Below are positions 4,950-53,883 of a stretch of DNA of 64,000 nucleotides, one piece after another. The notes under the pieces were generated by a model. That model did no database searches. It had not been told where the DNA came from and saw only the letters and a program-made list of their open reading frames with translations. This DNA is from Lathyrus oleraceus (taxonomy: Eukaryota > Streptophyta > Magnoliopsida > Fabales > Fabaceae): NCBI RefSeq assembly GCF_024323335.1, contig NC_066581.1, positions 35,854,699 through 35,918,698 of the forward strand, read 5' to 3'. A program made the position numbers and the translations under genes. Within the stretch, counting starts at the first letter, position 1. Every line of letters starts with the position of its first letter.

Positions 4950-5485
4950 TCACCAAAGAGTTGATGGAAAGGCAACTGTCATCGTCAAAGGGTTGACGGA
5001 AAGGATCTAAAGGATGTCGTCACCAAAGGGTTGGTGGAAAAGAAACCTCACTAGGGAGTGGCATCACCAAAGGGTTGGTGGAAAAGAAACCTCACTAGGG
5101 AGTGGCATCACCAAAGGGTTGGTGGAAAATAAACCTCACTAGGGAGTGGCATCACCAAAGGGTTGGTGGAAAATTACTTCACTATGGAGTGGCATCATCA
5201 AAGGGTTGATGGAAAAAACTTCACTAGGGAGTGGCATCACCAAAGGATTGATAGGAAAGATTGTATATGTAGTATCATCGTCAAAGGGTTGACGGAAAGA
5301 AACTTCACTATGGAGTGGCATCACCAAAGGGTTGGTGGAAAAGTATGGTCATCGTCAAAGGGTTGACGGAAAAGAGACTTCACTATGGAGTGGCATCACC
5401 AAAGGGTTGGTGGAAAGGATGATCATCATCAGAGGGCTGATGGAAAAGAAAGATTAGGTTATGTCCATCAAAGGGTTGATGAAAA
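4950..5485 (-). repeat. 3' UTR AGGG-loop hairpin array (TR-GAG copy 1)
   Basis: About 14 units, roughly 30-50 bp apart, each an inverted repeat round AGGG on the plus strand: CACCAA-AGGG-TTGGTG, CGTCAA-AGGG-TTGACG, CATCAA-AGGG-TTGATG and CATCAG-AGGG-CTGATG. The spacers (GGAAAAGAAACCTCACTAGG type) are also conserved. A hypervariable tandem-repeat 3' UTR is a known property of Ogre elements. Confidence 0.88.
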
Positions 5486-14235: not shown

Positions 14236-14263
14236 TTTTTTTTTTTTTTTTTTTTTTTTTTTT

Positions 14264-16162: not shown

Positions 16163-16257
16163 CTGAGGAATGAGAGTGGAAGAGTGGAATGTGAGTGGGA
16201 ATTTAGTGGGGTGAGGTGTCTGGCAGACCGTTGGGAGTGTTTTCCTTGGATTCCTCC
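16163..16257. repeat. 95-bp direct duplication, right copy
   Basis: Second copy of the block at 14141-14235. It joins the inverted fragment at the shared bases ACTG, a microhomology between primer site and LTR, and then continues as normal LTR. Confidence 0.9.
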
Positions 16258-27691: not shown

Positions 27692-27701
27692 CTTTTTATC
27701 C
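27692..27701 (-). promoter_or_regulatory. Putative TATA box of the TR-GAG LTR (GGATAAAAAG)
   Basis: The sense sequence GGATAAAAAG is followed within about 40-60 bp by a long pyrimidine-rich run (CTCTCTC type), as in many plant LTR leaders. The same box is at 2966-2975 in LTR1. If correct, U3 is about 0.7 kb and R plus U5 about 4.2 kb, an unusually long transcribed LTR part. The start site is inferred only. Confidence 0.4.
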
Positions 27702-27886
27702 TTTTCTTTTTTGTTTTATTCAGTATGTGCTGAGGAATGAGAGTGGAAGAGTGGAATGTGAGTGGGAATTTAGTGGGGTGAGGTGTCTGGCAGACCGTTG
27801 GGAGTGTTTTCCTTGGATTCCTCCCTTTTTTATTATTTCTTTTTTTTGTTTTTTATGTAAGTAAAGTAAAAAGGATCCAATGGACC

Positions 27887-32859: not shown

Positions 32860-33660
32860 AGAGTCAGTCTGAATACCGAAAAAGAATGTTAACCTGGATA
32901 CCAAAATAAATGGTAACACAGAAATAACCATGGCCTGAATGCCGCTCATCAGTCTGAATACCGAAAAAAACTTCGATCTGAACATCGGGAGATATAAGAT
33001 TATTAATATCGGTCTGAACACCGAGAGGCTGGCCTGAATGCCACAAGTTGCGTCGACCTGAACGTCGGAAACTTCTTCGATCTGAACATCGGAAAACTGG
33101 CCTGAACGCCACAAGTTGCATCGACCTGAACGTCGGAAACTTCTTCGATCTGAACATCGGAAAACTGGCCTAAACGCCACAAGTTGCATCGACCTGAACG
33201 TCGGAAACTTCTTTGATCTGAACATCGGAAAACTGGCCTGAACGCCACAAGTTGCATCGACCTGAACGTCGGAAACTTCTTCGATCTGAACATCGGAAAG
33301 CTGGCCTGAACGCCACAAGTTGCATCGACCTGAACATCGGAAACTTCTTCGATCTGAACATCGGAAAACTGGCCTGAACGCCACAAGTTGCATCGACCTG
33401 AACGTTGGAAACTTCTTCGATCTGAACATCGGAAAACTGGCCTGAACGCCACAAGTTGCATCGACCTGAACGTCGGAAACTTCTTCGATCTGAACATCGG
33501 AAAACTGGCCTGAACGCCACTTCGGTCTGAATACCGGAAACTTCATGCCTGTCAGCATCGGCAGAAATAGGGAACGATAATAGAGGCGGCGCATGGGCCA
33601 ATGACACTTGCTGGGGATAACAAAGGTAAGTCATGAACAATCTTCAGTCTGAGTACTGGA
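32860..33660 (-). repeat. 3' UTR array of 68-bp repeats built of CTGAAC-loop hairpins (outer element)
   Basis: Seven tandem 68-bp units (anchors at 33053, 33121, 33189, 33257, 33325, 33393, 33461) with degenerate flanks. Each unit holds three inverted repeats round the same hexamer: CGAC-CTGAAC-GTCG, CGAT-CTGAAC-ATCG and GGC-CTGAAC-GCC. Flanking variants are CGGT-CTGAAC-ACCG near 33012 and CAGT-CTGAGT-ACTG near 33645. The repeat lacks stops in all three minus frames and so makes several overlapping ORFs of up to 261 aa; these look like a by-product, with no known domain. Confidence 0.88.
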
Positions 33661-35096: not shown

Positions 35097-38000
35097 TTAT
35101 GCGAAGTATTTTTTAACTGCGTCTGAGTTCACAGGGGAAGTGAAGTTTTCACCATCCATCGTTGCAAGCATTAAGGCCCCACCATCAAAAACCTTGGTGA
35201 CAATATACGGTCCATCATAGTTAGGAGTCCACTTGCCCCTGTGATCTGTCTGAGGAGGAAGGATCCTTTTCAACACCAAATCTCCGACCTGGAAGCATCG
35301 AGGATGCACTTTCTGATCAAAGGCTCTCTTCATCCGACTTTGATACAACTGCCCATGACAAATGGCTGCCATTCGCTTCTCTTCGATAAGACTCAACTCA
35401 TTGAACCTTGTCCGAATCCATTCAGCTTCGTCTAACTTGACATCCAACAGGACTCTTAGAGAAGGAATATCCACTTCAACAGGTAGGACTGCTTCCATAC
35501 CATACACAAGGGAGTAAGGGGTTGCCCCGGTCGATGTACGTACTGAAGTACGGTACCCATGCAAGGCGAAGGGTAGCATCTCATGCCAATCTCTGTACGT
35601 AACGACCATCTTCTGCACAATCTTCTTTATGTTCTTATTTGCCGCCTCAACAACACCGTTCATCTTAGGGCGGTAAGGGGAAGAATTGTGATGCTGAATG
35701 TTGAAGTTCTGGCACAACTCCTTCATCATTTTGTTATTGAGATTAGAACCGTTATCAGTAATGATTCTTTCGGGAATCCCATAACGACAAATGATTTCTT
35801 TCTTGATGAAACGGGCAACCACGTGTCTGGTGACATTCGCGAATGATGCTACTTCGACCCACTTGATGAAATAGTTGATGGCAACAAGGATGAAGCGATG
35901 CCCATTGGAGGCGGTCGGCTCAATCTTTCCAATTATATCGATGCCCCACATAGAAAAAGGCCACGGCGAAGACATCACATTCAAAGGATTTGGTGGCACA
36001 TGTACCTTATCAGCATAAATCTGGCATTTATGACACTTCCGGGCATATTTGAAACAATCAGATTCCATGGTCATCCAGTAATAACCCGCTCTCAACAATT
36101 TCTTAGCCATTGCATGTCCGCCGGCATGAGTACAGAAGGAGCCTTCATGAACTTCCTGCATTAACATGTCTGCTTCGTGTCTATCCATGCATATGAACAA
36201 AACCATGTCGAAGTTCCTCTTATACAGAACATCATCTTTGTTAAAGAAGAAACTGCCTGCCAATCTCCTCAAAGTCTTTCTATCATTGTTGGATGCCCCT
36301 GCAGAGTACTCTTGATTCTTCAGAAAGCACTTGATGTCGTGATACCAGGGCTTGTCGTCAACTACCAGTTCAACAGCAAACACATACGCGGCCCTATCAA
36401 GGCGCATCACGTCGATCTTAGGAGCATGGTTCCAACGGATCACCGTGATCATGGAGGATAGAGTAGCAAGAGCATCTGCCATCTGGTTCTCATCACGAGG
36501 TATATGGTACAACTTTACTGTTGTGAAGAAAGTCAACAGTCTTCTCGTGTAATCTCTGTAGGGGACCAGAGTAGGATGGAGAGTGTTCCAATCACCATTC
36601 ACTTGATTGATTACCAGAGCTGAATCTCCGAAGATGTCCAAAGTCTTGATTATCAAATCAATGGCTTGCTCAATACCCAAGATACAAGCTTCATACTCAG
36701 CTTCATTATTGGTGCACTCGAAAGTCAGACGAGCGGTGAAAGGCATGTGGGCACCTTTTGGAGTTGTAATGACAGCACCAATTCCACTTCCTCTGGCGTT
36801 GACGGCCCCATCAAACATTAAAGTCCACTTTTCGTCTGGATCAGGTCCCTCTTCAACAACTGGCTCTTCACAGTCTTTCATCTTGAGGAACATGATGTCT
36901 TCATCTGGAAAATCAAACTTCATCGGCTCATAATCTTCAACCGGATGTTGAGCAAGATAGTCTGACAGAATACTCCCCTTGATGGCTTTCTGGGAAGTAT
37001 ACTGGATGTCGTACTCTGTCAGTACCATTTGCCAACGAGCAACTCTTCCGGTGAGAGCTGGCTTCTCAAATATATACTTGATTGGATCCATTTTGGAGAT
37101 CAGTAAGGTTGTGTGAGACAACATGTATTGTCTCAATCGCTTAGCAGCCCATGCAAGTGCACAACATGTTTTTTCAAGCATTGAGTATCTCGACTCGCAA
37201 TCTATGAATTTCTTACTCAGGTAGTAGATGGCATGCTCTTTCCTACCTGTCTCGTCGTGTTGACCGAGAACACAACCCATGGAATTGTCTAGTACTGTCA
37301 AATACATAATCAGCGGTCTCCTTGGGACCGGAGGCACAAGGATAGGAGGATTCTACAAATACTCTTTTATCTTCTCGAACGCCCTTTGACAATCATCATT
37401 CCACCTGATAGCCTGATCTTTGCTCAACAATTTGAATATTGGCTCACACGTGGCTGTTAGGTGAGAGATGAACCTTGCAATTTAGTTCAACCTCCCTAAG
37501 AAACCACGGACTTGTTTCTCTGTTCTTGGCTCAGGCATTTCCTGTATCGCTTTCACTTTGGCCGGATCCACCTCAATCCCTTTTTTGCTAACAAGAAAAC
37601 CCAGTAGTTTTCCAGATCTCACCCCAAAAGTACACTTGTTCGGATTAAGCCTCGGCTTGAATTTCCTCAAACGCTCTAACAGTTTCTGCAAATTCACCAA
37701 ATGTTCTTCTTCTGTCTGAGATTTGGAAATCATATCATCAACATAAACCTCGATTTCATGATGAATCATATCATGGAACAGAGTCACCATCGCTCGCTGA
37801 TACATTGCTACGGCATTTTTCAGACCAAACGACATCACCTTGTAGTAGAAGGTGCCCCATGGGGTTATGAATGTTGTCTTCTCCATGTCTTCTGGTGCCA
37901 TCTTAATTTGATTATAGCCAGAAAAGCCATCCATGAAGGAGAATACCGAGAACTGAGTCGTGTTATCCACCAAAACGTCAATGTGAGGTAAGGGGAAATC

Positions 38001-38571
38001 ATCTTTAGGACTAGCCCTGTTCAGATCCCGGTAGTCAACACACATCCTTACCTTTCCATCCTTCTTAGGTACCGAAACGATATTTGCAACCCATGGCGGA
38101 TAATTTGTGACTGCTAGAAACCCTGCATCCAACTGTTTTTGCACTTCTTCCTTTATCTTGACAGCCATCTCTAGTCTTGTTCTTCTGAGCTTCTGCTTGA
38201 CCAGAGGACAACCTTCTTTGAGCGGCAAGCGATGTACCACGATGTCTGTGTCAAGCCCTGGCATGTCTTGATAAGACCAAGCGAAGATGTCAACATACTC
38301 TTGCAGCAATTCAATCAACCCCTTCTTCACATTGTCTTCCAAAGCAGCCCCTATCTTGATTTCTCTCTTGGCGTCCTCGGTGCCGAGATTAATCACTTCA
38401 ACAGACTCTTGATGCGGTTGAATGACCCTTTCCTCTTGTTTTAATAACCTAGTAAGTTCTTCAGGGAGTTCACAGTCTTCATCACCCTCTTCTTCAGCTT
38501 GAAAGATTGGATTTTCAAAGTCGAAGCGAGCCATAGCGGAACCGTTATCAATAGGATCCGGTGATGTGCAT
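35097..38571 (-). pseudogene. pol: pol exon of the outer element: RT, RNase H, aRNH, integrase
   Basis: One reading frame from the splice acceptor (38571) to TAA at 35097-35099, broken by TAA (37482-37484, at a Tyr codon) and TAG (37353-37355, at a Gln codon), both in the RT-RNase H junction. RT (about 38300-37480) has VPKKDGKVRMCVDYRDLN, the SFMDGFSGYNQI stretch and the YVDD catalytic box. Then come a gypsy RNase H (YLTVLDNSMGCVLGQ) and an archaeal-type RNase H (FDGAVN, NNEAEYEA, GDSALVI, ADALA), the latter a hallmark of Tat elements. The integrase keeps the H-x3-H and C-x2-C zinc motif and all three catalytic acids (GIDIIG, ITDNGSN, VVEAANKN). The 746-aa stretch 37337-35097 is fully open. 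Confidence 0.9.
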
Positions 38572-38818
38572 CTGCATGAGTGATGGTATGTGCTTATGAG
38601 TGTGAAAAAAAAAAGTGGAAACTAAACAAAACATTGCCATTTTTTTTTTTGAAAAACTGCAAAAATAGAAAGACAGGGAACGAAATATTTGAATGCAAAA
38701 AGACGTCCTTTATTTATGATAAAAAATGCAAGTGTCACATAAATGAGCCCTACAATGAGTCATTACGCCCCGGAGGAACGTAAGACTTGGATATGCATGA
38801 ATAAACAAAGAAAATTAC
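38572..38818 (-). other. Intron between gag and RT (outer element), 247 bp
   Basis: GT-AG intron with sense donor GGA|GTAATT and acceptor CATGCAG|ATGC. Removal joins the frame ending ...LEE to SPDPIDN..., exactly in phase. If retained, GAG-TAA terminates translation at the donor. An intron at this place is an established Ogre feature. The intron shares a CTTTTTGCATTCAAATATT stretch with that of the inner element. Confidence 0.8.
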
Positions 38819-38829
38819 TCCTCCAGATA

Positions 38830-38834
38830 AGTGG
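38830..38834. repeat. Target-site duplication AGTGG, left (inner element)
   Basis: AGTGG is repeated at 53879-53883, directly outside the two LTR ends of the inner element. A perfect 5-bp duplication is as expected for Ty3/gypsy integration. Confidence 0.95.
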
Positions 38835-40851
38835 TGTCATACGGTGAACTGACTTTGTGTGTTTTTGCTTTGGAAAGCAAATGTCGCGGATAGCAAGAGT
38901 CGCCACCGACTTTTATTTTATCCAATAAGGAAAGGTGGAAAAGAACAGGAAAGACCTTAATTAGATTTTGGGTTCGGGAGGTACATTATACAAAGGGAAG
39001 GTGTTAGCACCCTTTGTATCCATGGTTATCCATGGGCACTTAATTGCTGGATCACTTATGTTTGTCTGAAAAAAGTGTTTGTGAATTGCTTAAAAATGTT
39101 TTTGAAAAGAGAGTTTAACTTTGTAATGATTCTTATGCGAATGTATACAAAGTATTTATCTCGTTTAATTTTGAAAGCGGTTTAGAAAAATATAACTTGG
39201 CAATGATTCTAGTATGAATGTATACCAAGTGGTGATTTTCTAGTATTTGCAAAGTGTGAGATATGGAAAATGTTTTAAGTAGTGATTCAGCATTTAAGAG
39301 TTATACCTACCCAAGGTCTTTATGGGCATTTCCTATCCTTATGAGGGTAAAACCGCCCTTACTATTGAGAAGTAAGTAGTTTTATCCTTTGGATGTAAAA
39401 GGGTCATCGTAGGGTCATCGATCGGTCATTGAAGGCAACATTCGTAAGGATACCTTAGCATTCGGAGGGACGATCATCATTTAACCGTAGGCTACACCGA
39501 AGGGTCATCGAGGGACAAAATCATATATTCGAAGGCAACATCCGAGGGACTATGATTTATCGGGACATGATGATTTATTCGAAGGGTCTTTGCCAAGTGT
39601 ATCCCCACATTCGCGGGACATGACCGTAATACCGTAATACTGTAGGGTAACAAAGAGAGGTCCAAGATCACATATTCAAAGGCCATATTTTACAATCAAT
39701 TAGGTAATTAGGATGAATCTCCACATTAAAATTAATACATTAAAATCAATTAAGTAATTTAGGGTGGATCTTCGCGATAAAATTAATACATTAAAATCAA
39801 TTAAGTAATTTATGGTGGATCTTCGCAATAAAATTGATACATTGAAATCAATTAAGTAATTTAGGGTGAATCTCCACAAGGGTATCCCACAAATAAAGTG
39901 GAATACCTATCAAGCTATCTTTTCCAGGGATATGTGAACCTTTACAAAACTCAGCAAACATGTCAGAATACCAAATCAGGGTGCAATCGAGAATTACACC
40001 ACAAAAGAAATCACAACAGTCGTAGGGTCAGGTAAGCAATGCATGGCTATGATAAAACATGTCAGATGAGCAAAAATCAGAACAGAAAAGTCAGCGACTG
40101 TCACATTCGCTCCTGCCTCGCCTAGCGAAGGCTTAGCGAATACTCGCTACATGCTCGCTTAGCGATGTGCTAGCGAGCGACTGCGGATTCTGGTTTTGAT
40201 AACAGTACAATTTCAGCCAATTTTATGCCTTATGGCATCCATTATAGAGATTATATGGTTAAACCTTCCAGATATTCATACATACTTAAACTCACATGCA
40301 AAACTTAAGATATTTTTATAAATTCAATCATAATGCCATATGCAAATTAAGAACCTAAAGCGGTAATAGCAATGCAAACCTGTTTGCAACTGAATTGCAA
40401 CCTTGAATCGGCAAATCGGATTGAATTGGGCGGAGGTAACCTTGATGCGGCTGAGTTTCCTTCAGGGTTTCTTTTAGGGTTGCTCTGAATTCTTAGGGTT
40501 AGCCTCCAGGGTTTGCTGTGCCTTCTCTCTATCTCCCGTCTTCCTTCCGTTTCCCTCCTCTCTTCTGAATGAAGCTCTGCTATTTATAATGCTCTTTTTG
40601 TGACCTAATGGGCTCAGAGTGAAGCCCAGAATTTTCTGATATCCGCAAGCTTCGCTAGGCGAGCGGTATAGCGAGGGGTTCGCTAGGCGAAGGATTTGCT
40701 CGCCTAGCGAGCATGCCAGTTGGGGTCATTTCCTCGGTTTGGCCACCTGCGAGTTGGGCCTTTGTTCTTGTAGGATCAATGCCTTGAAAAATAAGTTGGG
40801 GTGCCTTAAAAATGCCTTGTAATACTAACGGGCAATTTTTGGGGTATGACA
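38835..40851 (-). repeat. 3' LTR of the inner element
   Basis: 2,017 bp, TGTCATACCCC to CGTATGACA on the minus strand. Contains a TATA-like box at 40580-40589, clusters of CGCCTAGCGA / TCGCTAGGCG at 40118-40180 and 40650-40716, and three imperfect repeats of AATCAATTAAGTAATTTA near 39720-39870. The ORFs of 64-65 aa it holds recur in the other LTR and have no domain. Confidence 0.95.
40580..40589 (-). promoter_or_regulatory. Putative TATA box in the 3' LTR of the inner element
   Basis: Sense TTATAAATAG about 262 bp from the LTR start, followed by a pyrimidine/purine-rich GAAGAGAGGAGGG leader. The functional 5' LTR copy is at 53607-53616. Confidence 0.6.
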
Positions 40852-40867
40852 ACTGCCCCTGTTCAAT
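40852..40867 (-). promoter_or_regulatory. Polypurine tract of the inner element
   Basis: Sense ATTGAACAGGGGCAGT directly before the 3' LTR. Confidence 0.85.
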
Positions 40868-41157
40868 ATTCTTGAACCGAGAGAGTTAGAATGGCATGTA
40901 CGCCATTCGTGGTCTGGAGGTGTAAGATTATTGAACATTAGAATGCCCCAAAAATTTGCACTTGTTAATCAGAAGTTATTCCTGATGGAGATGGGCTTAA
41001 AGGTGCCATCCAGGAAGTTTGATGATGAAAGATCAGAATGGATCATACGCTGCTGGGGATAAAGGATCAGAATGGACCATATGCTAGATCGTATCTGAGT
41101 AGCAGAATGAGTTATCCATTAGGCGGGTGACTTCGCTGGGGATGAAAGATCAGAATG

Positions 41158-41675
41158 GATCGTACGCTAGATCGTATCTGAGTTGCAGAATGAGCCGTAC
41201 GTTAGGCTGTATCTGACGAAGGTAGAATCAGAATGGATCGTACGTTAGATCGTATCTGAGTTGAAGGTCCAAATGGGTCGTACGTTAGACCGTGTTGGGG
41301 TTGCAGAATGAGCCGTACGTTAGGCTGTATCTGAAGAAGAAGGTAGTCGTACGCTAGACTACACCCCGGAATGTACCGTACGCTAGGCAGTATCTGAGGA
41401 TTTGAAGATCCAAATGGGTCGTACGTTAGACCGTATTGGAGTTGCAGAATGAGCCGTACGTTAGGCTGTATCTGAAGAAGAAAGTAGTCGTACGCTAGAC
41501 TACACCCCGGAATGTACCGTACGCTAGGCAGTATCTGAGGATTTGAAGATCCAAATGGGTCGTACGTTAGACCGTATTGGAGTTGCTGAAGGTCAGAATG
41601 GATCGTACGTTAGATCGCATCTGAGTTGAAGGAGTCATATGTTGAGCTGAATCAGAATGAACCGTACGCTAGGCT
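41158..41675 (-). repeat. 3' UTR array of about 14 stem-loops with constant GTACGYTA loop (inner element)
   Basis: Each unit is arm + GTACG(C/T)TA + complementary arm. First units: GATC/GATC (41158-41173), AGCC/GGCT (41193-41208), GATC/GATC (41236-41251), GGTC/GACC (41276-41291), AGCC/GGCT (41311-41326), GTAGTC/GACTAC (41343-41362), TACC/GGCA (about 41374-41389). A higher-order block of about 140-180 bp then repeats the GGTC, AGCC, AGTC and TACC units. The linkers (CAGAATG, TATCTGA) are conserved. Non-coding. Confidence 0.9.
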
Positions 41676-42659
41676 AAATCTGATAGTATTTGCAATGAAT
41701 ATCTGGGGTAGGCTTTAGAGATGCCACCATTGGGAGGATATCAGAGTGTCTGTCAGAATGGATGTTCATATGGATTGTATTTGAGAGCTGTATTTGAATC
41801 TTGAATGTAATTGATCAGGACGTCCGTCTGAATGGATCTTTTATTTTGACTATATCAGGAGGATAATTAACCTGAAAAGGAAAGTTAGCTTCATGCCAGG
41901 TCATGATGCATACGATGTTTTATGCTTTTGAAAATAAATGCGAACATTGTATGCATGTATGTGATGTGCAATGATGCATGAAATGAATTATGCGTCTGAG
42001 AATTTTGTCAGGGGAAAATAAATCCCCACATCCTAGTTGGAGATATTTGTATTGATGACCCTTTCTCAGCTGGGGGTATTTGATTTCTGTCTGATGGTAG
42101 AAATGTTCAACAGAAGCCTGGCTGGGGATGGAAGAGATGACCAATTTGTCTAGTAATGCCAATTTCTTCTGGGGAGTAACTGGCTTTGCTGGGGAATAGA
42201 ATTAGCAACGGATTCATTGGAAAGCATGGTTAGACCTTCTCCTCGATCCTGAAGTCTTGTAGTAATCGCTATTTCTATTTTATGCATGCATTTTTGGTAA
42301 ACATCGATCATATTCAAATGCATATATTAATTCAAATTAAATCAATGGACGTTTACGCAAACAAAACAGAAAAAGTAAAACAAAAGCATCTTTTTGGAAA
42401 TAAAATTGTATTGAGTTTGAAAGAGGGCCTATAAACAGGCAATTTGTGTACAAAGAGACAGAAATCCTAGTAAGAGGAAATTGTCGAGAACATAAAGAAA
42501 AAGCTATGAAGGAAAAGTCCTATCGATTTTAATTCTGCTACTGTCATTATGTCTTCAAGCATCTCATCTCCTGCTGTCGGATAGAAGTGATTGGCTTGTT
42601 CAGTCCTTTTGACTTGGGTGAAGCTGACCGAGAATGGGACATAGTCATACGCTTTTAAT
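41676..42659 (-). other. Rest of the 3' UTR of the inner element
   Basis: AT-rich non-coding sequence with loose repeats of CTGGGGA and CAGAATGGAT. No ORF above 80 codons on the sense strand and no domain. The stretch 40868-41157 just beyond the array holds decayed units (for example ATGCTAGATCGTATCTGA near 41080). Confidence 0.6.
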
Positions 42660-42856
42660 CCCTAATTTTTGCCTGGACCGCCTTTTCAGGTTTTCAGTCC
42701 ACCAGGATACCCTTTTTTGCCCAAGCCGCCTTTTCAAGTTTTCGACTTGCCGGGTGTACATTTTTCATATGTTTATCCCTAATTTTTGCCCGAACCCTTT
42801 TGGTTTGCCGGGATGCCCTTACTTCTGCCTAGATACGTCGACCTAGCGGGTCTCTT
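42660..42856 (-). repeat. Four tandem hairpins after pol (inner element)
   Basis: Stems TGGACCG/CAGTCCA (42674-42680, 42695-42701), CAAGCCG/CGACTTG (42722-42728, 42743-42749), CGAACC/GGTTTG (42791-42796, 42802-42807) and CTAGAT/ACCTAG (42829-42834, 42841-42846). Compared with the outer element several pairs change on both sides (T-A to C-G). CCCG and GGCAAAA frames are kept, with small changes. Confidence 0.85.
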
Positions 42857-45800
42857 TTATGCGTAGTATTTTTTGACTATGTCTGCGTTCACGGGATGCG
42901 GGAAATCTTCGCCATCCATTGTAGCAAGCATCATGGCTCCACCAGAGAATACCTTCTTAACTACAAATGGCCCTTCGTATGTGGGAGTCCATTTGCCTCT
43001 GGGATCACCTTGTGGTAGAATGATACGCTTTACTACCAAGTCGCCAATTTGATACACCCGTCTCTTGACTCTTTTGTTAAATGCCTGGGTCATGCGCTTC
43101 TGATATATCTGCCCATGACAAACAGCCGCAAGTCTCTTCTCATCAATCAAATTTATCTGATCGAGTCGAGTCTGAATCCATTCATCTTCATCTAAGCCCG
43201 CCTCTTTCATGATTCTTAGAGAGGGAATCTGAACTTCCACTGGTAAAACGGCTTCCATCCCGTAGACTAAAGAGAAAGGAGTTGCCCCTGTCGAAGTCCG
43301 CACTGACGTGCGATAACCATGAAGAGCAAAGGGTAACATCTCATGCCAGTCTTTGTATGTTACTGTCATTTTTTGTATGATCTTCTTGATATTCTTATTA
43401 GCAGCCTCCACGGTGCCGTTCATCTTTGGCCGGTACGGAGAGGAGTTATGGTGTTTTATTTTGAACTGCGTGCAGAGTTCAGTAATCATCTTGTTGTTCA
43501 AATTAGTACCATTGTTAGTGATAATTCTTTCAGGGATGCCATATCGACAAATGAGACTATTCTTGATGAACCGTGCCACCACATTCTTGGTAACAGAAGC
43601 AAATGAGGCTGCCTCTACCCACTTTGTAAAGTAATCAATAGCAACAAGAATGAAACGATGTCCGTTAGAAGCAGTAGGTTTAATCTCTCCAATCATATCG
43701 ATGCCCCACATTGCAAAGGGCCAAGGGGCTGTCAACACGTTTAAAGGAGCAGGAGGCACATGTACTTTATCCGCATAGATCTGGCACTTGTGACAAGTTC
43801 TGGAGTGATGGTGGCAATCAGCTTCCATGGTAGACCAATAATACCCTGATCTCAGAATCTTCTTGGCCATCGTATGTCCACTAGAATGAGTCCCAAAAAT
43901 ACCGTCGTGCATGTCTTCCATAATCTTTTCTGCTTCCTTTTTATCCACACAGCGAAGCAAAGTCAAATCATGATTACGTTTGTATAATACTCCATTACTC
44001 AAAAAGAATTTAGTGGAGAACTTCCTCAGAAATTTTCTGTCGTTGATGGATGCCCCTTCAGGGTATTCCTGAGTTTCTAAATATCTTTTCACTTCGTGGA
44101 ACCAAGGTTTCTCCTCTACTCCCTCAGTATTAAGTTCATAACAATACGCTGGTTCATCTAATCGTTCAATGGTGATCCTAGGAGCCTCACTGTCCCATCT
44201 GACTCTGAACATAGATGACATGGTAGCCAATGCGTCTGCCAACTGATTCTCTTCCCGTGGAATATGTTCAAATGTAATCTCTTCAAAGTATGGGATTAAT
44301 GTCATCACCCGCTCTCGATAAGGGATGAGATTCAGATGTTTAGTGTCTCATTCTCTTTTGATCTGACTGATTACTAATGCTGAGTCTCCGTACACACTCA
44401 AAAACTTGATTCTTAAGTCTATAGCAGCCTTGAGTCCCAAAATACATGCTTCATACTCAGCCATATTATTGGTACAATCAAAACATAGTCTAGCAGTGAA
44501 AGGTGTATGGCAACCTCTGGGAGAAATAATTACAACACCAACACCATTGCCCAATGCATTAGAAGATCCATCAAAAACCATAGTCCATCGGGATCCCAGT
44601 TCGGGTCTTTCATCCGGTCCAGGTTCTTCATAATCAGTAACAAGCATGACATCCTCATCTGGGAACTCAAAATTCATAGATTGATAATCATCCACTGCTT
44701 GATGAGCCAAATGATTAGCTAGCATGCTTCCTTTGATTGCTTTCTGGGTAGTATACTGGATATCATACTCTGTTAAAATCATCTGCCATCTTGCTATTCT
44801 TCCGGAGAGGGCAGGTTTCTCAAATATGTATTTGATAGGGTCCATCTTAGAAATCAATAAAGTGGTATGATTCAACATATACTGTCTTAGTCGGCGAGCA
44901 GCCCAGGCCAAAGCACAGCAAGTTCTCTCGAGCAGTGAGTATCTTGTTTCACAGTCGGTAAACTTTTTGCTAAGGTAGTATATGGCATGCTCTTTTCGAC
45001 CAGACTCGTCATGTTGCCCCAACACACACCCCATTGAATTTTCTAACACGGTTAAATACATAATTAGAGGTCTTCCTTCAACTGGTGGCATCAGAATTGG
45101 AGGTTCTTGGAGGTACTTCTTGATTTTGTCAAAAGCTTCTTAACATTCATCATTCCATATCATCTCTTGATTTTTCCTCAGTAATTTGAAGATGGGTTTG
45201 CAGGTAGCGGTCAAATGGGAGATAAACCGGGCAATGTAATTCAAACGTCCCAAGAAACCTCTGACTTCTTTATCTGTACGAGGAACTGGCATTTCTTGAA
45301 TAGCTCTCACCTTAGCCGGGTCAACCTCGATTCCTCTGCCACTGACAATAAATCCCAAGAGTTTACCGGATCTTACCCCAAAGGTGCATTTGTTCGGGTT
45401 CAATCTCAGCTTGTATTTCTTCAACCTCTCAAACAATTTGTACAAATGGTCGAGATGTTCTTCTTCAGTATGAGATCTGGCTATCATGTCATCCATATAT
45501 ACTTCTATTTCATGATGAATCATATCATGGAACAAAACCACCATAGCACGCTGGTACGTTGCCCCGGCGTTCTTTAAACCGAATGGCATTACTTTATAAC
45601 AGAAAGTGCCCCATTGCATCACAAACGTAGTTTTCTCCATGTCTTCAGGTGCCATCTTAATCTGGTTATAACCCGAGAATCCATCCATGAAGGAGAATAC
45701 TTTGTGTTGAGCGGTGTTGTCTACCAGAACATCAATGTGCGGGAGTGGAAAGTCGTCTTTGGGACTCGCTTTATTCAGATCTCTGTAATCTACACACATT

Positions 45801-46328
45801 CGTACCTTACCATCCTTCTTTGGCACTGGTACCACATTAGCAACCCATTGCGGATAAGAAGTAACGGCCAGAAAACCCGCATTAAATTGTTTCATAACCT
45901 CGGCTTTGATTTTCTCAGACATTTCAGGACGCATGCGCCGAACCTTTTGCTTGACGGGACGACAGTCTTCCTTCGTTGGCAAACGATGCACTACTATGTC
46001 AGTATCCAGTCCTGGCATGTCTTCGTAGAACCAAGCAAAAATCTCTATATAGTCATGTAACATCTGAATCAATCTTCCTTTGACACTGTTTTCCAAGCCT
46101 GCTCCTATTTTGACTTCTTTCTTGTCCACTTCAGTACCCAGGTTTACAATTTCGATTGACTCTTCATGCGGCTGTATAGTTCTTTCTTCTTGCAGTAATA
46201 GTCTGGCAAGTTCTCCAGGTACTTCACAATCTTCCTCACTTCCATCCTCGGCTTGGTAGATCGGATTTTCAAAGTCATAATGAACAGTAGTAGAACTATT
46301 ATCAACAGGATCCAGAGTGGGTATGGAT
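42857..46328 (-). pseudogene. pol: pol exon of the inner element: RT, RNase H, aRNH, integrase
   Basis: A single frame from the splice acceptor to TAA at 42857, interrupted by TAA at 45140-45142 (Gln codon, after RT) and TGA at 44348-44350 (Trp codon, inside aRNH). RT (46129-45140) has VPKKDGKVRMCVDYRDLN and a YMDD box. Gypsy RNase H follows (45091 on), then aRNH with FDGSSN, NNMAEYEA, GDSALVI and ADALA. Integrase (44308-42857, 483 aa open) has H-S-S-G-H and C-H-K-C zinc ligands and the core acids at GIDMIG and TVEAANKN. The second catalytic Asp is Asn (ITNNGTN, against ITDNGSN in the outer element). Defective as it stands. Confidence 0.92.
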
Positions 46329-46572
46329 CTGCAATTTGTTACGTGAGTGTGTGTAAGAAAACATAGCTTTTTTGGAAGATGACAGGAAAGATAACGAGCG
46401 CAATATTTGAATGCAAAAAGTCCATTGATTTATTGAATGTGAACATGCTTATGAAAATGACAAAACCCTTAACAAATTAGCTATTGTGCCCCCGACTTAG
46501 ACACAATGCTTTAAGAAGTTCGATTGTAAAAACTAAAAAATTTGCAACACTAAAATAGACAATAACAATTAC
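46329..46572 (-). other. Intron between protease and RT (inner element), 244 bp
   Basis: Sense donor GGA|GTAATT, acceptor AATTGCAG|ATCC. Splicing joins ...ISFSQE to SIPTLDPVDNS... in frame and connects gag-protease to pol. Unspliced RNA ends at TAA (46569-46571), whose bases are part of the donor. Position and phase equal those of the outer element. Confidence 0.85.
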
Positions 46573-49500
46573 TCCTGACTAAAGGAAATCGGGATAGTGT
46601 CTTCAGCCTTCCAGTTATTGAGTCCGTCACCAATTGTTGGGAAAATCCAGCTATCCAGGTCGCAGTCGCTGTCAGCATCTTCTACAGCATTAATCTGATC
46701 TTTGACCATCCTTTCAGAGTTAAATCCCAGACCAGACTTGTCAGACTTGTACGGTACGTTGATCAGTTGACCCCAGCCAGTGCGACTACCATCTTCAACC
46801 ACGGCTTGAGCGTCCTTCAGAGAAATCATAGCAGGAGGAGCACAAATAACCTTGGGCACACATGAAGTTGGCTTAAGGACAGGACTAGTCGGGGGAACTA
46901 CTTCAAATGACTGAGAAGGAGTCTCAAAGAATTCACCATCCATCTCGACGTATCTGAAGGCCTGCACACTACTGACAATATACTCTTCTTCTCCACACAC
47001 AGTGACAATCTTGCCCTCTATTGGATACCTCAGCTTTTGATGGAGGGACGAAGCTACATCACTTGCCCCATGAATCCAAGGGCGTCCCAGCAAGCAGGAA
47101 TAGGCAGGACGAATGTTCATTACGTGAAAGGTAGTGTTAAAGACTTTAGGTCCTATTTTGATAGGGAGAACTACTTCGCCATAGACAACACTCTTCGCAC
47201 CATCGTAAGCACGTACCACAATGTCACTAGGTTTCAGTTCGATGCTTTTACAGTCAAGTTTATCAAGCACAACTTTCGGTAGCACATTCAAAGAGGAGCC
47301 ATTATCGATCAACACATGAGACAAGGTGGTCCCCTTACACTCAATGGAGATATGCAGAGCTTTATTGTGATTCTTTCCTGCTGGTGTCAGGTCAGCATCG
47401 GAAAAGCCTAGGCCATTGTCAACAGTCAGGTTGGCAACATAGTTTGCAAACTGATCGACGGATGTCTCCTGAGGTACATGAGCGGTCTTCAAGAATTTTA
47501 TCAATGCATTGGCATGAGATTCAGAAGATAACAGCAAGGATAACATCGAGATCTTAGACGGAGTATGCCCCAACTGTTCTACCACATCAAAATCACTCTT
47601 GCGGATGATTTTCAGCACTTCTTCCATTTCTTGTTTGGCAACATCTTCGGTAGTAACTTCGACCGGTGTCTCTGACTGAGAAGGGTGGACTGGTTCCTTT
47701 CCTCGAGTTTCAAGGGCAGGAGGTGAGATTTCTGGAGAGAATATCCTTCCACTTCGAGTAATTTTACTAGTCCCAACAATGCCATTAGGATTAGTAGAAT
47801 TATCAACTTGCTTTACGCCATGGATGTAAACATCACCTCCATAATTCCACGGAATAACTTTGCTTGAGGAATACGGTACTGGGCCAGGTGCAGTAATAAT
47901 TAGGGGAGCTACCTTGGGCTCAGCAGTAATCTTCACAGGCACTCTAGTAGTGGTAATCTTCACTGGAACTTTGGACCTGGCAATCACAAATATTTCTTCA
48001 ATAGGGTTTTCCGCCTTAGGAATCTTTTCAAAGAGAATTGTACGATCATCCATCAGCCGTTGAATACCATTCTTCAACTTCAAACAATCATTGGGTTGGA
48101 GTATGCAGAGATCGCAATTTTCAGCACAACCTGGAAATAAACCAGCTTGCACTAAATTCTTCTTGATGATCAGGAGAGGAGATATTAAGTCAGCTACGTT
48201 AGAAATGTGAGAATTGTCATCCACAGCGTTAACAGTCTTGTCATGATTAGGCATGGGAGCAGTGATGATATTAGGAGTATCTGGCGGGTCAAATTCAATT
48301 TCTCCAGCGTCGATCATATCCTGAATCTTATTCTTCAACAACCAACAATCGTTTGTATCATGCCCAGGGCTATCGGAGTGATATGCACACCTGACATTGG
48401 GATTATAACGAGGAGAAGCAGTGTTAACATTTGCAGGAGGGCCTCTGAGGGTAATTAGGTTTGCCTTTAGCATACCCTGCAGTGCTTGTGCTAAAGTCAT
48501 ATTGATCTTGGTAAACTGCCTTCTTGGCCTGTCTTGCCTGTGCTGGAAGTTTTGAGATGGCGGTGCTGCAATCGTAACTGCTCCAACGGCATGGTCACGA
48601 TTTTTCTTGTTATGACTCCTTTCACCGTACACAGCATTTGATTCATTCTTTCCCTGATGGGTCTTTCTGGTGCTTGCGGAGGTAGCTGCCTGTATCTTTC
48701 CACTTCAAATACCACTTTCAACACGTTCCCCTGTCAATATCAGGTCAGTGAAACCCGATGAAGAACTTCCCAGTAGATGGCTGTAGAATGGACCAGTCAG
48801 TGTACCCATGAACATGTCCACTAATTCTCGATCAGTCATAGGGGGTTTGACTCTGCCAGCCAAATCTCTCCATTTTTGAGCATATTCTTTGAAGCTTTCT
48901 CTAGATCCCATAGTCATACTCTGCAACTGTATCCGAGTAGGCGCTAATTCAGAATTATACTGGTAGTGCTTGTAGAAAGCTGTCGCTAAATCAGTCCAGG
49001 TGCGGATGTTAGAGCTCTCGAGCTGGTAATACCACTCCAACTGTGTGCCAGACAGACTCTCTTGGAAGAAATGGATCCATAGCTTCCTATCAGTGGTATA
49101 CGGCTGAATCTTTCTCACATAAGCTCTCAGATGCATCTGAGGACAAGATGCCCCATCGTATTTAGTGAAAGCGGGGACCTTGAATTTGCGGGGAATGACC
49201 ACATCAGAGACCAGACCTAAGCCTTCGAAATCCAGACCGGGCGCCTTCTGACCCTCCATAGCTAGCATGCATTCTTCCAGCAACTTATACTTATCATATT
49301 TTGGAGAGTATTGTTCATTTTCATAATCTTCATCGTCGTCCTCCTGGCTGAAAGGATCAGCATTCTCATCTTCTGAATCTGTCCCCTCTTCTTGATCCTT
49401 CGGAATCCTAATCTTGACTCCTGCAGTCTGTCCTTTAAGCCTTCTTCCCAGGTTAATGTAACTCACAGGTTTCTGGTCTTTCTTCTTCTCGAGCAAGAGG

Positions 49501-49598
49501 GCCTTCAGTTCCTCCTGCCCCTTGGATAAGCTCAGCATCATCTCCTGGAATTGAGCATTCTGAGCCTGGAGATCTTTGACAGTTTGTTCGAGAGCCAT
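46569..49598 (-). pseudogene. gag-pro: gag-protease of the inner element, one in-frame TGA
   Basis: Starts at ATG 49598 and ends at TAA 46569-46571 in one frame of 1,009 codons, interrupted by TGA at 48705-48707 just after ERVESGI, where the related element has a Lys (GLKSGKIQ); a CGA codon there would give TGA by one C-to-T step. The N-terminal part (297 aa) has a coiled coil and the retrotransposon gag domain (about 150-250, LSGTQLEWYYQLE, YAQKWRDL). The second part (open from 48632, 687 aa) has the C-x2-H-x5-H-x4-C knuckle at its residues 82-96, a Cys cluster at about 169-183, the aspartic protease site LIDNGSSLNVLP near 443 and LLGRPWIHGA downstream. Protease sits in frame with gag, as usual for Tat. 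Confidence 0.9.
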
Positions 49599-49809
49599 TT
49601 TTCTGTTTAGAAGGAAGACCGTAAGAACATTGATCTTTTAGAATACCTGTTATGCAATGTTATGTTATGCTATGCAATGTATGAAATGTTTTCAAGGACT
49701 TTTGGAATTTAACTTTGCGTAAACCACCAACAAGAGAGAAACTTTTATTAATAATTTCTTTAATCAATGTTCATTACAAAAAGAATAATAATAAAAATAC
49801 AATGAAAGC

Positions 49810-51138
49810 TCAAGTCTCCCAGGGGTGACTTCTTTTTGGGCGAAGATATGCATTGAGTCTTCGTTCCTCATTAAGCTGACTGGTAAGTTCTAACACTTTC
49901 TTCCTTTCTGCAACGAATTGAGTCTCAAAAGTATCCCTTTCCTCTCTCAACTGGATCCAGGATCTCTTCAGTTCTTCAACATTGGTAGGCATATCTGGAT
50001 AAGGAATGATCTGAGGAGTACCTCCTTCAACTTCTGGTTCGACAATCTGAGGTCCGATTGCAAGATATGGCATGACAAGTTCGCGAGCTCTGGCGCGTAC
50101 CCATCTGAGATAAGGTTCCATAGGAATAGAGTTTTTCTGTCCTAAAGTACTTCTTTTCACCATGCCCCAAGCTCGTACAAACCTTTGGCGGAGACCTTGG
50201 GAATCGTTGTCATAGTCAAACACAGTGCCTTGGATAATTATCTCATGTGGACCATCTCTTGGAGCATAACCAAACTGGCGTAGGGCTAAAGCTGGGTTAT
50301 AAGTAATACCTCCTCTTATCCCCAAGAGTGGTACATTAGAGAATTCTCCACAACGGTCGATGAGGATAACGTCTTCTTTGAGATGCGGACACCAACGGAT
50401 GTCTGAATGGGAGAGCGACATTATCCTTTGAGACCATTTCAAATTCTGCTCGTTCTTCAAGACTGACTGAGGAAGGTGCGAAATAAACCACCTAGACAAT
50501 AAAGGTACGCAGCACATGAGGGTCCCTTGCCTCTTCATAGTACGGGTGTGGAGGGAATGCAAAATGTCTCCAAGCAAGGTAGGCACAGGGTTATGAGTGA
50601 GAAATATCTTAATAGCATTCATGTCTATGAATTGGTCTGGGTTAGGGAATAACGCCAAACCATAGATTAGTAACGCTAGGACATCTTCGAAAGCATGGAC
50701 GTCCATAACTTTTAAGAATTCTCGGGCCTTATTTATCAGAAATTTGGCAAGTAAACCCTTAACTCCACTTCTTGTTACCCAATTGGTTTCAATATCGGAC
50801 TTTGCCATGTGTAAAGCTGCGGCAGCTTCTTCAGACTTCGGAATCTTTTCTAAACCACTGAAAGGTGTTTGATCAAGTATAGGTATCCCAAGCAGTCTGG
50901 AGAATTCTTCTAATGTGGGTACCAACTGATAATCTGGGAATGTGAAGCAATGGTGTTTAGGATCAAAGAACTGGAATAAAACTCTCATCATATCTTCTTT
51001 GAAACCAGTGGTAACCAAATTGAGAAGAGAACCATGTTTCTTGGTGAACTGAGCCTGATCAGGAAGTTCTGACACTAAATTCTTGAGTTGAGGAGAGGTC
51101 ACTACGAAATTAATCCGGATGGTCTTTCTGGAAGCCAT
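49810..51138 (-). CDS. Extra ORF upstream of gag (ORF1), 442 aa, inner element
   Basis: Intact ORF between leader and gag, on the same strand, 211 bp before the gag ATG. An ORF in this place marks Ogre elements; its function is unknown. It starts MASRKTIRINFVV; the mid part (FPDYQLVPTLEEFSRLLGIP, LLIYGLALFPNPDQFID, LLSRWFISHLP) looks like the plant-mobile-domain / DUF7745 type found in many legume repeats. The last 60 residues (VEELKRSWIQLREERDTFETQ onward) are heptad-like, probably coiled coil. No Cys/His motif, signal peptide or membrane segment. It is open although gag and pol are broken. Confidence 0.8.
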   Translation of the reverse strand: MASRKTIRINFVVTSPQLKNLVSELPDQAQFTKKHGSLLNLVTTGFKEDMMRVLFQFFDPKHHCFTFPDYQLVPTLEEFSRLLGIPILDQTPFSGLEKIPKSEEAAAALHMAKSDIETNWVTRSGVKGLLAKFLINKAREFLKVMDVHAFEDVLALLIYGLALFPNPDQFIDMNAIKIFLTHNPVPTLLGDILHSLHTRTMKRQGTLMCCVPLLSRWFISHLPQSVLKNEQNLKWSQRIMSLSHSDIRWCPHLKEDVILIDRCGEFSNVPLLGIRGGITYNPALALRQFGYAPRDGPHEIIIQGTVFDYDNDSQGLRQRFVRAWGMVKRSTLGQKNSIPMEPYLRWVRARARELVMPYLAIGPQIVEPEVEGGTPQIIPYPDMPTNVEELKRSWIQLREERDTFETQFVAERKKVLELTSQLNEERRLNAYLRPKRSHPWET

Positions 51139-51838
51139 AGCCCTGTTAAACAGAGCAAAGTCAAATCCCTAAGTCCTTGAAATGGTTAGTACAATGCCAT
51201 GATGTTATGATGTTATGATGTTATGATGTTATGATGTTAAGTAAATAACAAGCACAAGCAAGTCGCACAACCATCATTCCTAAGTTTTAAGGCTTGCATG
51301 AGTTCCATAAGTAAGTACCCTCCCCATTGAAGTTTGGTTGGTTCAACCTGTCCTAGAATAGTAACCGGGTTCTAATAGGATTTCCAATCATTGACCTTCC
51401 TTTAAGTCCACTTCAGTGCAACACCAAGTGGTTGACCGAAGCTTCCCTAAAGTCCAATCTCAAAGAGTGTAGTATCGAGTCTCAACCAACCCCAGTCGAA
51501 ACCGAAGTCAGTTATCTCACTACTTTCTAATGGCTAGGATGAGTCAATTAGGGTTCTAAAGGTCTGGTTAATGCTTTGACGACACCACGCAGACGCCAAA
51601 TTTCTCCTCAAGTAAACATGAGGAACATCAGGACATCCAAAGTGTCACATTAACCGTAGCCATCATTTTAACCATTCCAGTATATGCCGGATAGTCGCGA
51701 TGATCTATTGCTACTTACCTAAGGTACACTAGATCCGGGTGTAGGATCTTTCACTCAAGCATATAATCCCTTAAAAATAAATCAGACAATTCAAATAAGT
51801 GATCCTTTTTTTTTAAGATGGCCTCTCTTCGTAATCAC
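51139..51838 (-). other. 5' leader of the inner element with an 8-bp microsatellite
   Basis: About 700 bp between primer site and ORF1. ATGATGTT is repeated five times at 51199-51238, just upstream of ORF1. No other feature is supported. Confidence 0.65.
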
Positions 51839-51857
51839 GTCCCCAGCAGAGTCGCCA
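51839..51857 (-). promoter_or_regulatory. Primer-binding site of the inner element
   Basis: Sense TGGCGACTCTGCTGGGGAC, 4 bp (GAAC) after the 5' LTR end. Identical to that of the outer element; Ogre-type, tRNA-Arg-like. Confidence 0.88.
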
Positions 51858-51861
51858 GTTC

Positions 51862-53878
51862 TGTCATACGGTGAACTGACTTTGTGTGTTTTTGCTTTGG
51901 AAAGCAAATGTCGCGGATAGCAAGAGTCGCCACCGACTTTTCTTTTATCCAATAAGGAAAGGTGGAAAAGAACAGGAAAGACCTTAATTAGATTTTGGGT
52001 TCGGGAGGTACATTATACAAAGGGAAGGTGTTAGCACCCTTTGTATCCATGGTTATCCATGGGCTCTTAATTGCTGGATCACTTATGTTTGTCTGAAAAA
52101 AGTGTTTGTGAATTGCTTAAAAATGTTTTTGAAAAGAGAGTTTAACTTTGTAATGATTCTTATGCGAATGTATACAAAGTATTTATCTCGTTTAATTTTG
52201 AAAGCGGTTTAGAAAAATATAACTTGGCAATGATTCTAGTATGAATGTATACCAAGTGGTGATTTTCTAGTATTTGCAAAGTGTGAGATATGGAAAATGT
52301 TTTAAGTAGTGATTCAGCATTTAAGAGTTATACCTACCCAAGGTCTTTATGGGCATTTCCTATCCTTATGAGGGTAAAACCGCCCTTACTATTGAGAAGT
52401 AAGTAGTTTTATCCTTTGGATGTAAAAGGGTCATCGTAGGGTCATCGATCGGTCATTGAAGGCAACATTCGTAAGGATACCTTAGCATTCGGAGGGACGA
52501 TCATCATTTAACCGTAGGCTACACCGAAGGGTCATCGAGGGACAAAATCATATATTTGAAGGCAACATCCGAGGGACTATGATTTATCGGGACATGATGA
52601 TTTATTCGAAGGGTCTTTGCCAAGTGTATCCCCACATTCGCGGGACATGACCGTAATACCGTAATACTGTAGGGTAACAAAGAGAGGTCCAAGATCACAT
52701 ATTCAAAGGCCATATTTTACAATCAATTAGGTAATTAGGATGAATCTCTACATTAAAATTAATACATTAAAATCAATTAAGTAATTTAGGGTGGATCTTC
52801 GCGATAAAATTAATACATTAAAATCAATTAAGTAATTTAGGGTGGATCTTCGCAATAAAATTGATACATTGAAATCAATTAAGTAATTTAGGGTGAATCT
52901 CCACAAGGGTATCCCACAAATAAAGTGGAATACCTATCAAGCTATCTTTTCCAGGGATATGTGAACCTTTACAAAACTCAGCAAACATGTCAGAATACCA
53001 AATCAGGGTGCAATCGAGAATTACACCACAAAAGAAATCACAACAGTCGTAGGGTCAGGTAAGCAATGCATGGCTATGATAAAACATGTCAGATGAGCAA
53101 AAATCAGAACAGAAAAGTCAGCGACTGTCACGTTCGCTCCTGCCTCGCCTAGCGAAGGCTTAGCGAATACTCGCTACATGCTCGCTTAGCGATGTGCTAG
53201 CGAGCGACTGCGGATTCTGGTTTTGATAACAATACAATTTCAGCCAATTTTATGCCTTATGGCATCCATTACAGAGATTATATGGTTAAACCTTCCAGAT
53301 ATTCATACATACTTAAACTCACATGCAAAACTTAAGATATTTTTATAAATTCAATCATAATGCCATATGCAAATTAAGAACCTAAAGCGGTAATAGCAAT
53401 GCAAACCTGTTTGCAACTGAATTGCAACCTTGAATCGGCAAATCGGATTGAATTGGGCGGAGGTAACCTTGATGCGGTTGAGTTTCCTTCAGGGTTTCTT
53501 TTAGGGTTGCTCTGAATTCTCAGGGTTAGCCTCCAGGGTTTGCTGTGCCTTCTCTCTATCTCCCGTCTTCCTTCTGTTTCCCTCCTCTCTTCTGAATGAA
53601 GCTCTGCTATTTATAATGCTCTTTTTGTGACCTAATGGGCTCAGAGTGAAGCCCAGAATTTTCTGATATCTGCAAGCTTCGCTAGGCGAGCGGTATAGCG
53701 AGGGGTTCGCTAGGCGAAGGATTTGCTCGCCTAGCGAGCATGCCAGTTGGGGTCATTTCCTCGGTTTGGCCACCTGCGAGTTGGGCCTTTGTTCTTGTAG
53801 GATCAATGCCTTGAAAAATAAGTTGGGGTGCCTTAAAAATGCCTTGTAATACTAACGGGCAAATTTTGGGGTATGACA
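51862..53878 (-). repeat. 5' LTR of the inner element
   Basis: 2,017 bp, same length as the 3' LTR. TATA-like box at 53607-53616; primer-site-like GGTGGCGACTCT at 51923-51934, 61 bp inside the end. About 13 differences from the 3' LTR by eye, e.g. A/C near 51940, C/T near 52557, A/G near 53131. Confidence 0.95.
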
Positions 53879-53883
53879 AGTGG
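53879..53883. repeat. Target-site duplication AGTGG, right (inner element)
   Basis: Matches 38830-38834. Removing the inner element and one copy restores an uninterrupted frame into the outer intron donor. Confidence 0.95.

Follow-up and report, generated by a model that had tools for sequence, protein, structure and literature searches.

The window, by which is meant the whole 64-kb stretch of Lathyrus oleraceus (pea) DNA analysed here, contains one minus-strand LTR retrotransposon at 38835-53878. Its LTRs, of about 2,017 bp each, are 99.4% identical to one another, and the element is flanked by a 5-bp target duplication, AGTGG (38830-38834 and 53879-53883). The features of this carrier element are:

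38835..40851, minus strand: 3' LTR (LTR comparison)
42857..44347, minus strand: integrase frame and end of the additional RNase H (Pfam), the final coding part ahead of the hairpin array
44348-45139, minus strand: RNase H and start of the additional RNase H (Pfam), part of the frame 44348..46429
45140-46429, minus strand: reverse transcriptase (Pfam), part of the frame 44348..46429
48705..49637, minus strand: Gag frame (Pfam PF03732)
49810-51168, upstream of gag: extra ORF of 452 aa, DUF7745 (Pfam)
51862..53878, minus strand: 5' LTR (LTR comparison)

Judged by its sequence, the carrier appears to fit a Ty3/gypsy element of the Ogre/Tat type, because its domain order and its additional RNase H match the description in the excerpted text of PMC6317226. 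That text gives an additional RNase H between RNase H and integrase as an Ogre hallmark; in the carrier, an RVT_3 match runs across the frames 44348-45139 and 42857-44347, between RT_RNaseH and rve, a feature common to Retand elements. A related family (family B, see below) has the same order of RNase H, additional RNase H and integrase, but in one frame. The DUF7745 frame represents the extra ORF that is common in the OTA superclade, and the 3' UTR contains tandem repeats, as in Ogre elements. Ogre elements carry gag-pro and RT-RH-INT as two ORFs with a short intron stretch between them; the stop-to-stop frames of the carrier are separated by a 139-bp gap (46430-46568), and Pfam did not recognise a protease. 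The primer binding site of Ogre elements is given as tRNA-Arg in passages of PMC2206039, and TGGCGACTCTGCTGGGGAC begins 4 bases past the 5' LTR of the carrier, at the putative primer binding site. The carrier appears to have inserted within a related element of family B, since a B gag-like frame (54113-55585) and the B pol (35097-38621) lie on its two sides. The carrier integrase also matches, with 62% identity over the whole query, a protein filed as Salmonella enterica (P0020), a record that is most likely plant contamination.

The 3' UTR of the carrier, which runs from the integrase stop to the 3' LTR, contains a string of short hairpins. The preliminary description had reported about 14 stem-loop units with the loop GTACGYTA in an Ogre 3' UTR, and it was right on both the units and their location: the window has 14 GTACGYTA sites, every one of them within the array (41162-41671, plus strand), against a chance expectation of 1.19 for the window and a maximum of 4 among 100 shuffles, and the array has pol on one side and the 3' LTR on the other, in what appears to be an Ogre/Tat-type element. 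Absent from that description were an outer helix (TCAGA/TCTGA, TCCAA/TTGGA), a 15th, decayed unit (41067-41098), and the location of the element on the other strand. The array and representative units are:

41067..41683, minus strand: array of 15 hairpin units, 14 with the exact loop (the motif as first written reads on the plus strand; the coding strand is the minus strand)
41150..41181, minus strand: typical unit with outer arms TCAGA/TCTGA, internal loop ATG/GTA, inner arms GATC/GATC and loop GTACGCTA (sequence and 32-mer fold)
41337..41368, minus strand: variant class, inner stem of 6 uninterrupted bp, GTAGTC/GACTAC (sequence and class counts)
41409..41440, minus strand: unit in which the outer and inner arms have changed together, TCCAA/TTGGA and GGTC/GACC (sequence)

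On the plus strand, antisense to the element, the typical unit reads TCAGA-ATG-GATC-GTACGYTA-GATC-GTA-TCTGA, which gives a 5-bp outer stem, an unpaired 3x3 ATG/GTA internal loop, a 4-bp inner stem and an 8-nt loop. The inner 4-nt arms are fully Watson-Crick in 11 of the 14 window units, and each of the remaining three has a single A.C mismatch (two TACC/GGCA, one AACC/GGCT). The original statement that the arms are nearly always complementary is therefore accurate for most units but not for TACC/GGCA, which carries its mismatch in the window copy; the complementary counterpart, TACC/GGTA, is seen in 39 of the 71 family A loci (family A being that of the carrier). Tandem duplication within the array is plain, in the form of a 141-bp higher-order repeat.

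The full two-helix shape is the commonest fold among 192 distinct units (34 units, with 18 more that differ by the outermost pair), and in the AGTC/GACT class a continuous 6-bp stem replaces it. Folding energy picks no strand, because the whole region (41027-41700) does better on the element strand (z of -4.4, versus -2.5 on the opposite strand; 20 shuffles each) and single units do slightly better on the other (means of -6.8 kcal/mol on the element strand and -7.7 on the non-coding strand). An Rfam scan of the window gave 0 matches above the gathering score, a tRNA scan of the window was empty, and viral contigs contained no exact match to one unit pattern.

Hairpins of this kind are abundant in the pea genome. 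A 20-letter half-unit pattern, searched through 3.8 Gb with at most three mismatches, gave 64,142 matches, versus 352 for the reversed control. The 71 family A loci yielded 1,076 units, with 3 to 29 hairpins per locus (median 16; some arrays exceed the sampled stretch), in a collection biased toward the GATC-arm unit in that 58 of the 70 fetched loci came from the window's own contig through a pattern with this arm. Among the 19 arrays within the first 20 fetched loci, integrase adjoins 17, in every case at the side expected and in opposite orientation. An adjacent integrase match is missing at one array (L016), and at another (L018) the sole integrase match lies past the LTR in the other orientation and probably belongs to another element. 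The window LTR matches 18 of these 19 arrays, with 74-92% identity over pieces of at least 170 bases, and has no match at L013. A sample independent of the array was obtained with the C-terminal 180 residues of integrase as query, by reading the 1.2 kb downstream. An array was present in all 12 elements picked in this way, with 5 to 20 units each, and the strand was uniform (159 units opposite to pol and none on its own strand); these 12 were taken at intervals from 150 listed matches, which alone had been scored among 147,941 candidates, and are close relatives for that reason.

The loop is constant across the 14 exact-loop units of the window copy and variable in the family as a whole, where GTCCGTTA, GTACATTA, GTACACTA, ATACGCTA and GTATGYTA are common variants. 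The invariance first ascribed to the loop thus describes the window copy, and strict invariance is ruled out for family A. The relaxed unit detection used for the larger set relies on loop, closing pair and internal-loop columns for its score, and so conservation at these positions is partly there by construction. At two loci, L100 and L106, four unit types of one higher-order repeat share CA for CG in the loop, and their arms, which differ from one another, are mostly paired; it is as if the loops had changed together.

The arms pair in one register. In the exact-loop set (59 loci, 484 units, 192 distinct 32-mers), 90% of the inner-arm cells are Watson-Crick at the proposed register versus 1-33% when the arms are slid by one to three positions, a comparison that bears out the complementarity first noticed by eye in the window. 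For the outer arms, leaving aside the AGTC class, the corresponding values are 77% and 8-31%. At the three positions of the internal loop, neither a pair nor a wobble forms in 147, 138 and 130 of the 151 distinct non-AGTC units, counts that rest on units found by loop alone; the last of these positions has 14 further A.C among the same 151. In the 71-locus set, where the closing pair was the sole arm position used for detection, 78 inner-arm types occur in the 1,076 units, and pairing is complete in 730 units, broken at one pair in 298 and at two or more in 48 (756 are fully paired at pairs 2-4 alone). Eight types are fully complementary, namely GATC/GATC, GGTC/GACC, AGCC/GGCT, AGTC/GACT and TACC/GGTA, together with the rarer CGTC/GACG (7 units), AACC/GGTT (3) and CATC/GATG (2). 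Nine pairs of types are one compensatory step apart; both intermediates were sampled for four of these, one intermediate for one, and none for the other four. In one such step, AGCC/GGCT (159 units) and AACC/GGTT (3) are bridged by AACC/GGCT (56) and AGCC/GGTT (9).

Covariation was measured against a tree-aware null, in which columns were simulated independently on the unit tree, each keeping its own number and kind of changes, in 1,000 runs; the test was limited to pairs 2-4, and the trees are rough, since the units from which they were built are no more than 20 to 32 nt long. With 507 distinct units, the inner helix has a covariation of 0.747 versus 0.072 (sd 0.051) in the simulations, and 0 of 1,000 runs reach it. 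The outer helix scores 0.192 versus 0.069 simulated, which 4 of 1,000 runs reach, and the internal loop shows no covariation (0.009 versus 0.013 simulated; 428 of 1,000 runs). A smaller set of 376 units gave 0, 15 and 529 of 1,000 runs for the inner helix, outer helix and internal loop, respectively, and the 12 integrase-picked loci alone gave 0 runs for the inner and 6 of 1,000 for the outer helix. The preliminary description had argued that arm change with preserved pairing is not what tandem duplication with random substitution would leave, and for the inner helix this is upheld, since the tree-aware model fails to generate the covariation. Constraint on base pairing in the array is well supported overall, very well for the inner helix and fairly well for the outer.

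In a pairing-blind G-test with the tree null, inner pairs 4, 2 and 3 rank 1-3 of 496 column pairs, with E values of 0.017, 0.05 and 3.6; E is at or below 0.05 for only 2 of the 12 pairs, and the outer pairs fail. Recent compensatory pairs within a unit type were set aside as evidence because the signal is too weak: among outer-helix haplotypes with exactly two changes (seven classes of at least 20 units), pairing is restored in 2 of 21, and 5 of the 21 come from the AGTC class. Much of the variation within unit types consists of single substitutions. Shuffling the arms among distinct types gave no separation (6 observed versus a mean of 2.9 and a maximum of 10), and is uninformative because many arm types are single mutants of each other. 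Wobble asymmetry gave no signal either. Among arm types present in at least two loci, 12 have one G.T and 9 have one A.C on the array strand, about equal numbers, and the attempt to assign the RNA strand in this way was abandoned; the preference for G.U over A.C on the transcribed strand that is expected of a structured cis-acting RNA was not seen (9 versus 12 types).

Analogous arrays are found in two related families, so that the observation is not only confirmed but broader than first noted. The whole window was scanned de novo for any loop present repeatedly with three or more complementary arm types. The scan returned the family A array and three other kinds, with loops CTGAAC, AGGG and GTAC; the same scan returned nothing in five locally shuffled windows, nor in the pol region. 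At 20 other loci, scanned with loops containing TACG, CGTA or GTAC excluded, it returned five rows in four loci, of which four have 3-nt loops and look like chance and one is a decayed A loop. The corresponding features of the window are:

32861..33660, minus strand: family B array downstream of B pol, with loop CTGAAY and arms TGGC/GCCA, CGAT/ATCG, CGAC/GTCG, CGGT/ACCG and others
35097-38621: family B pol, upstream of the B array
4980..5480, minus strand: element C array, with loop AGGG and arms CACCAA/TTGGTG, CGTCAA/TTGACG, CATCAA/TTGATG, CATCAG/CTGATG and CACT/AGTG
18144-18644: near-identical second copy of the element C array

A 22-letter pattern of family B has 51,805 genome matches and a 23-letter pattern of element C has 14,505, versus 0 in the control for each; the B and C loci were each fetched by a pattern with a single arm type. 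The 21 B arrays contain 453 units, 348 of them fully paired, and six complementary arm types, one of which is limited to one array. Pairs 1-4 are paired in 81-88% of cases, with one slid register reaching 62% at pair 2, and the stem covariation of 0.548 (0.093 simulated) was reached in 0 of 1,000 tree-aware runs. In nine element C arrays, at least 4 bp form at 137 of 169 AGGG sites, and four 6-bp arm types each occur in 7 to 9 arrays, with a fifth seen once; covariation is 0.320 versus 0.037 simulated, with 0 of 1,000 runs reaching it. A search with AKGG, which also matches unit ends, found 6-bp arms at 110 of 261 sites, and one slid register reached 71% at one pair. Stem length is mostly constant within a family (4+5 bp in A, 4 in B and 6 in C), the exceptions being AGTC units in A and CACT/AGTG units in C. 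Element C looks non-autonomous, since it has kept gag and arrays and neither the A nor the B reverse transcriptase, RNase H or integrase has a match in it.

The arrangement of element C, in window 1-28388, is complex. There are three LTR-like copies (347-3133, 11487-14267 and 25073-27860), two internal parts that are 99.8% identical, and an inverted stretch (14556-16169), as if two copies shared the middle LTR. Palindromes with a CGTACG core lie near the LTR ends (178-432, 11059-11575, 14654-15369 and 24224-25159), and their arms (AAGC/GCTT, AGGC/GCCT, TGGC/GCCA, TGGT/ACCA) are a separate case of varied arms that are still paired.

Base pairing in these arrays is under constraint, place and orientation are kept in the sampled copies, and three families have the same design with different loops. 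We tentatively propose, at somewhat short of an even chance, that the array presents many copies of an RNA docking site, whose partner may be the Gag encoded by the same element. The part of the retrotransposon transcript that follows pol and precedes the 3' LTR would then act in cis as a structured region, where two helices keep pairing while their letters vary, and the apical and internal loops keep their letters within limits. The idea of a docking platform in the genomic RNA comes from the fact that the stems change while both kinds of loop and the length of the stems stay largely the same, in many repeats at a fixed place and on a fixed strand; the docking protein would sense the loop and the geometry and ignore the stem letters. 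RNA is the likely acting form of the array, and we infer that a protein reads it. Because the loops differ between families, the partner would be expected to differ as well, and the likeliest candidate is the element's own Gag, which might gather and package its own RNA amid related transcripts. Gag is the first choice because the Gags of A, B and C (48705-49637, 54113-55585 and 8122-9387) are 39-52% identical in their aligned parts, compared to 66-74% between the A and B pol proteins (reverse transcriptase 74%, RNase H 72%, integrase 66%), and Gag-directed RNA selection is proposed with modest confidence.

Data from yeast elements bear on this docking proposal in both directions. Passages of two papers on these elements (PMC4974528, PMC11381356) report that Ty3 needs UTR and/or POL sequences to localise and package its RNA; they also report, against the proposal, that the mapped dimer and packaging signals of Ty1 and Ty3 lie toward the 5' end and that the Ty1 3' UTR is dispensable for localisation. 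The pairing-blind G-test, the weak signal from recent changes and the better fold of single units on the non-coding strand also count against it, as does the lack of wobble asymmetry, since selection on the sense RNA should favour types with one A.C on the array strand.

Several other explanations need to be weighed. The place of the array between pol and the 3' LTR would also suit an RNA export or stability element, akin to the constitutive transport elements of simple retroviruses, in which 3' UTR hairpins read by a host protein aid the nuclear exit of unspliced, intron-bearing transcripts; however, a single host factor predicts one common loop, and with different loops in the three families this is rather unlikely. 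Complementarity could also arise without selection, as a mutational by-product, if fold-back during reverse transcription copied one arm from the other. Such a process could be common to several families and accounts for the similar frequency of the two mismatch types, and the longer-stem AGTC class could be one of its products. Nonetheless, copying through a unit should erase the internal loop, which instead remains mismatched at the frequencies given above, the outer helix beyond that loop also covaries, and stem length is mostly constant per family apart from the two exceptional classes; a by-product of this kind is about as improbable as an export element. Neutral tandem duplication of one ancestral hairpin, with pairing as mere inheritance, agrees with the 141-bp higher-order repeat and with the single substitutions that make up much of the within-type variation, but is extremely unlikely in that none of the 1,000 tree-aware simulations reaches the A inner-helix score or the B and C stem scores.

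The arrays might instead act as DNA palindromes, either as protein sites or as extruded cruciforms with effects on chromatin, recombination or integration. Mismatches without strand asymmetry, and the paired arms of the CGTACG palindromes near the LTR ends of element C, would be in keeping with this, but the array is internal to the element and its strand is fixed relative to pol. Sequence-specific DNA sites also seldom vary in their arm letters, and cruciform extrusion should be inefficient from arms so short, with an 8-nt loop and a 3x3 mismatch, and so a role at the DNA level seems quite improbable. A kissing-loop dimerisation signal, in which the loop palindrome CGTACG joins two genomic RNAs, is suggested by the main loop of family A and by the dimerisation of Ty3 through a short palindrome in a hairpin, as reported in passages of PMC11381356 (see also the Ty1 paper PMC5454406). 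We consider it very unlikely: 17 of the 19 units at each of L100 and L106 carry the palindrome-breaking CA for CG and yet have been tandemly multiplied, at both loci, and the B and C loops, CTGAAY and AGGG, are not palindromic. Self-complementarity is thus a property of the main A loop that is broken in propagated sub-families and absent in B and C.

Retroviral and Ty packaging or dimerisation hairpins resemble the array in being genomic-RNA hairpins whose loops are conserved and presumably recognised by Gag or by a second hairpin, but those named in the excerpted passages sit toward the 5' end, whereas the pea array lies in the 3' UTR and has as many as 29 units. Simple retroviruses carry a constitutive transport element, likewise a structured RNA with symmetric internal loops, which follows the last gene and precedes the 3' LTR; it has few copies and a host receptor, whereas the pea arrays have many copies and family-specific loops. 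The dispersed packaging-signal hairpins of small RNA viruses, (PMC6475782), are also short degenerate signals that recur on one RNA, but these lie in the virus genome, and the pea array is contiguous, non-coding and in a retrotransposon.

The hypervariable 3' UTR tandem repeats of Tat/Ogre elements (Macas et al. 2009, via passages of PMC7004042 and PMC6317226) come from the same region and lineage as the array, and like it they are tandem, differ between elements and are satellite precursors (PMC7004042). PMC7004042 treats these repeats as sequence, and its main text contains neither 'secondary structure' nor 'palindrom'. Among the titles and abstract openings listed for open-access papers, which for two queries covered 20 of 603 and 20 of 136 papers, none describes covarying hairpin arrays in Ogre/Tat 3' UTRs; Macas et al. 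2009 (Gene) may mention hairpins. According to passages of PMC2206039, Ogre elements are estimated to account for 20-33% of the pea genome, and their 3' UTR repeats are a known source of many satellites, with an origin ascribed in the excerpted text of PMC7004042 to illegitimate recombination or abnormal strand transfer. If the arrays are kept folded by selection, they would have a function in the life cycle of the element; this would offer a testable answer to how plant retrotransposons choose their own RNA, and some satellite DNAs would descend from RNA-structure modules. It is conceivable, though doubtful, that Ogre families each have their own hairpin code, with family-specific loops read only by that family's Gag and with loop and Gag diverging together. 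In that event, tens of thousands of competing elements would keep their RNAs apart, gag-only derivatives would survive by retaining both lock and key, and the hypervariable 3' UTR, a known satellite nursery, would be a fast-evolving identity tag.

Some smaller pairing-capable repeats occur elsewhere in the window. Short inverted repeats surround CGCTAGGCGA / TCGCCTAGCG at 40655-40715, in the LTR, and element C has further repeats of this kind at 3982-4340 and 5754-5910, in the forms GAGA...TCTC with inner TTCAT/ATGAA and CCAAT-AGGG-ATTGG.
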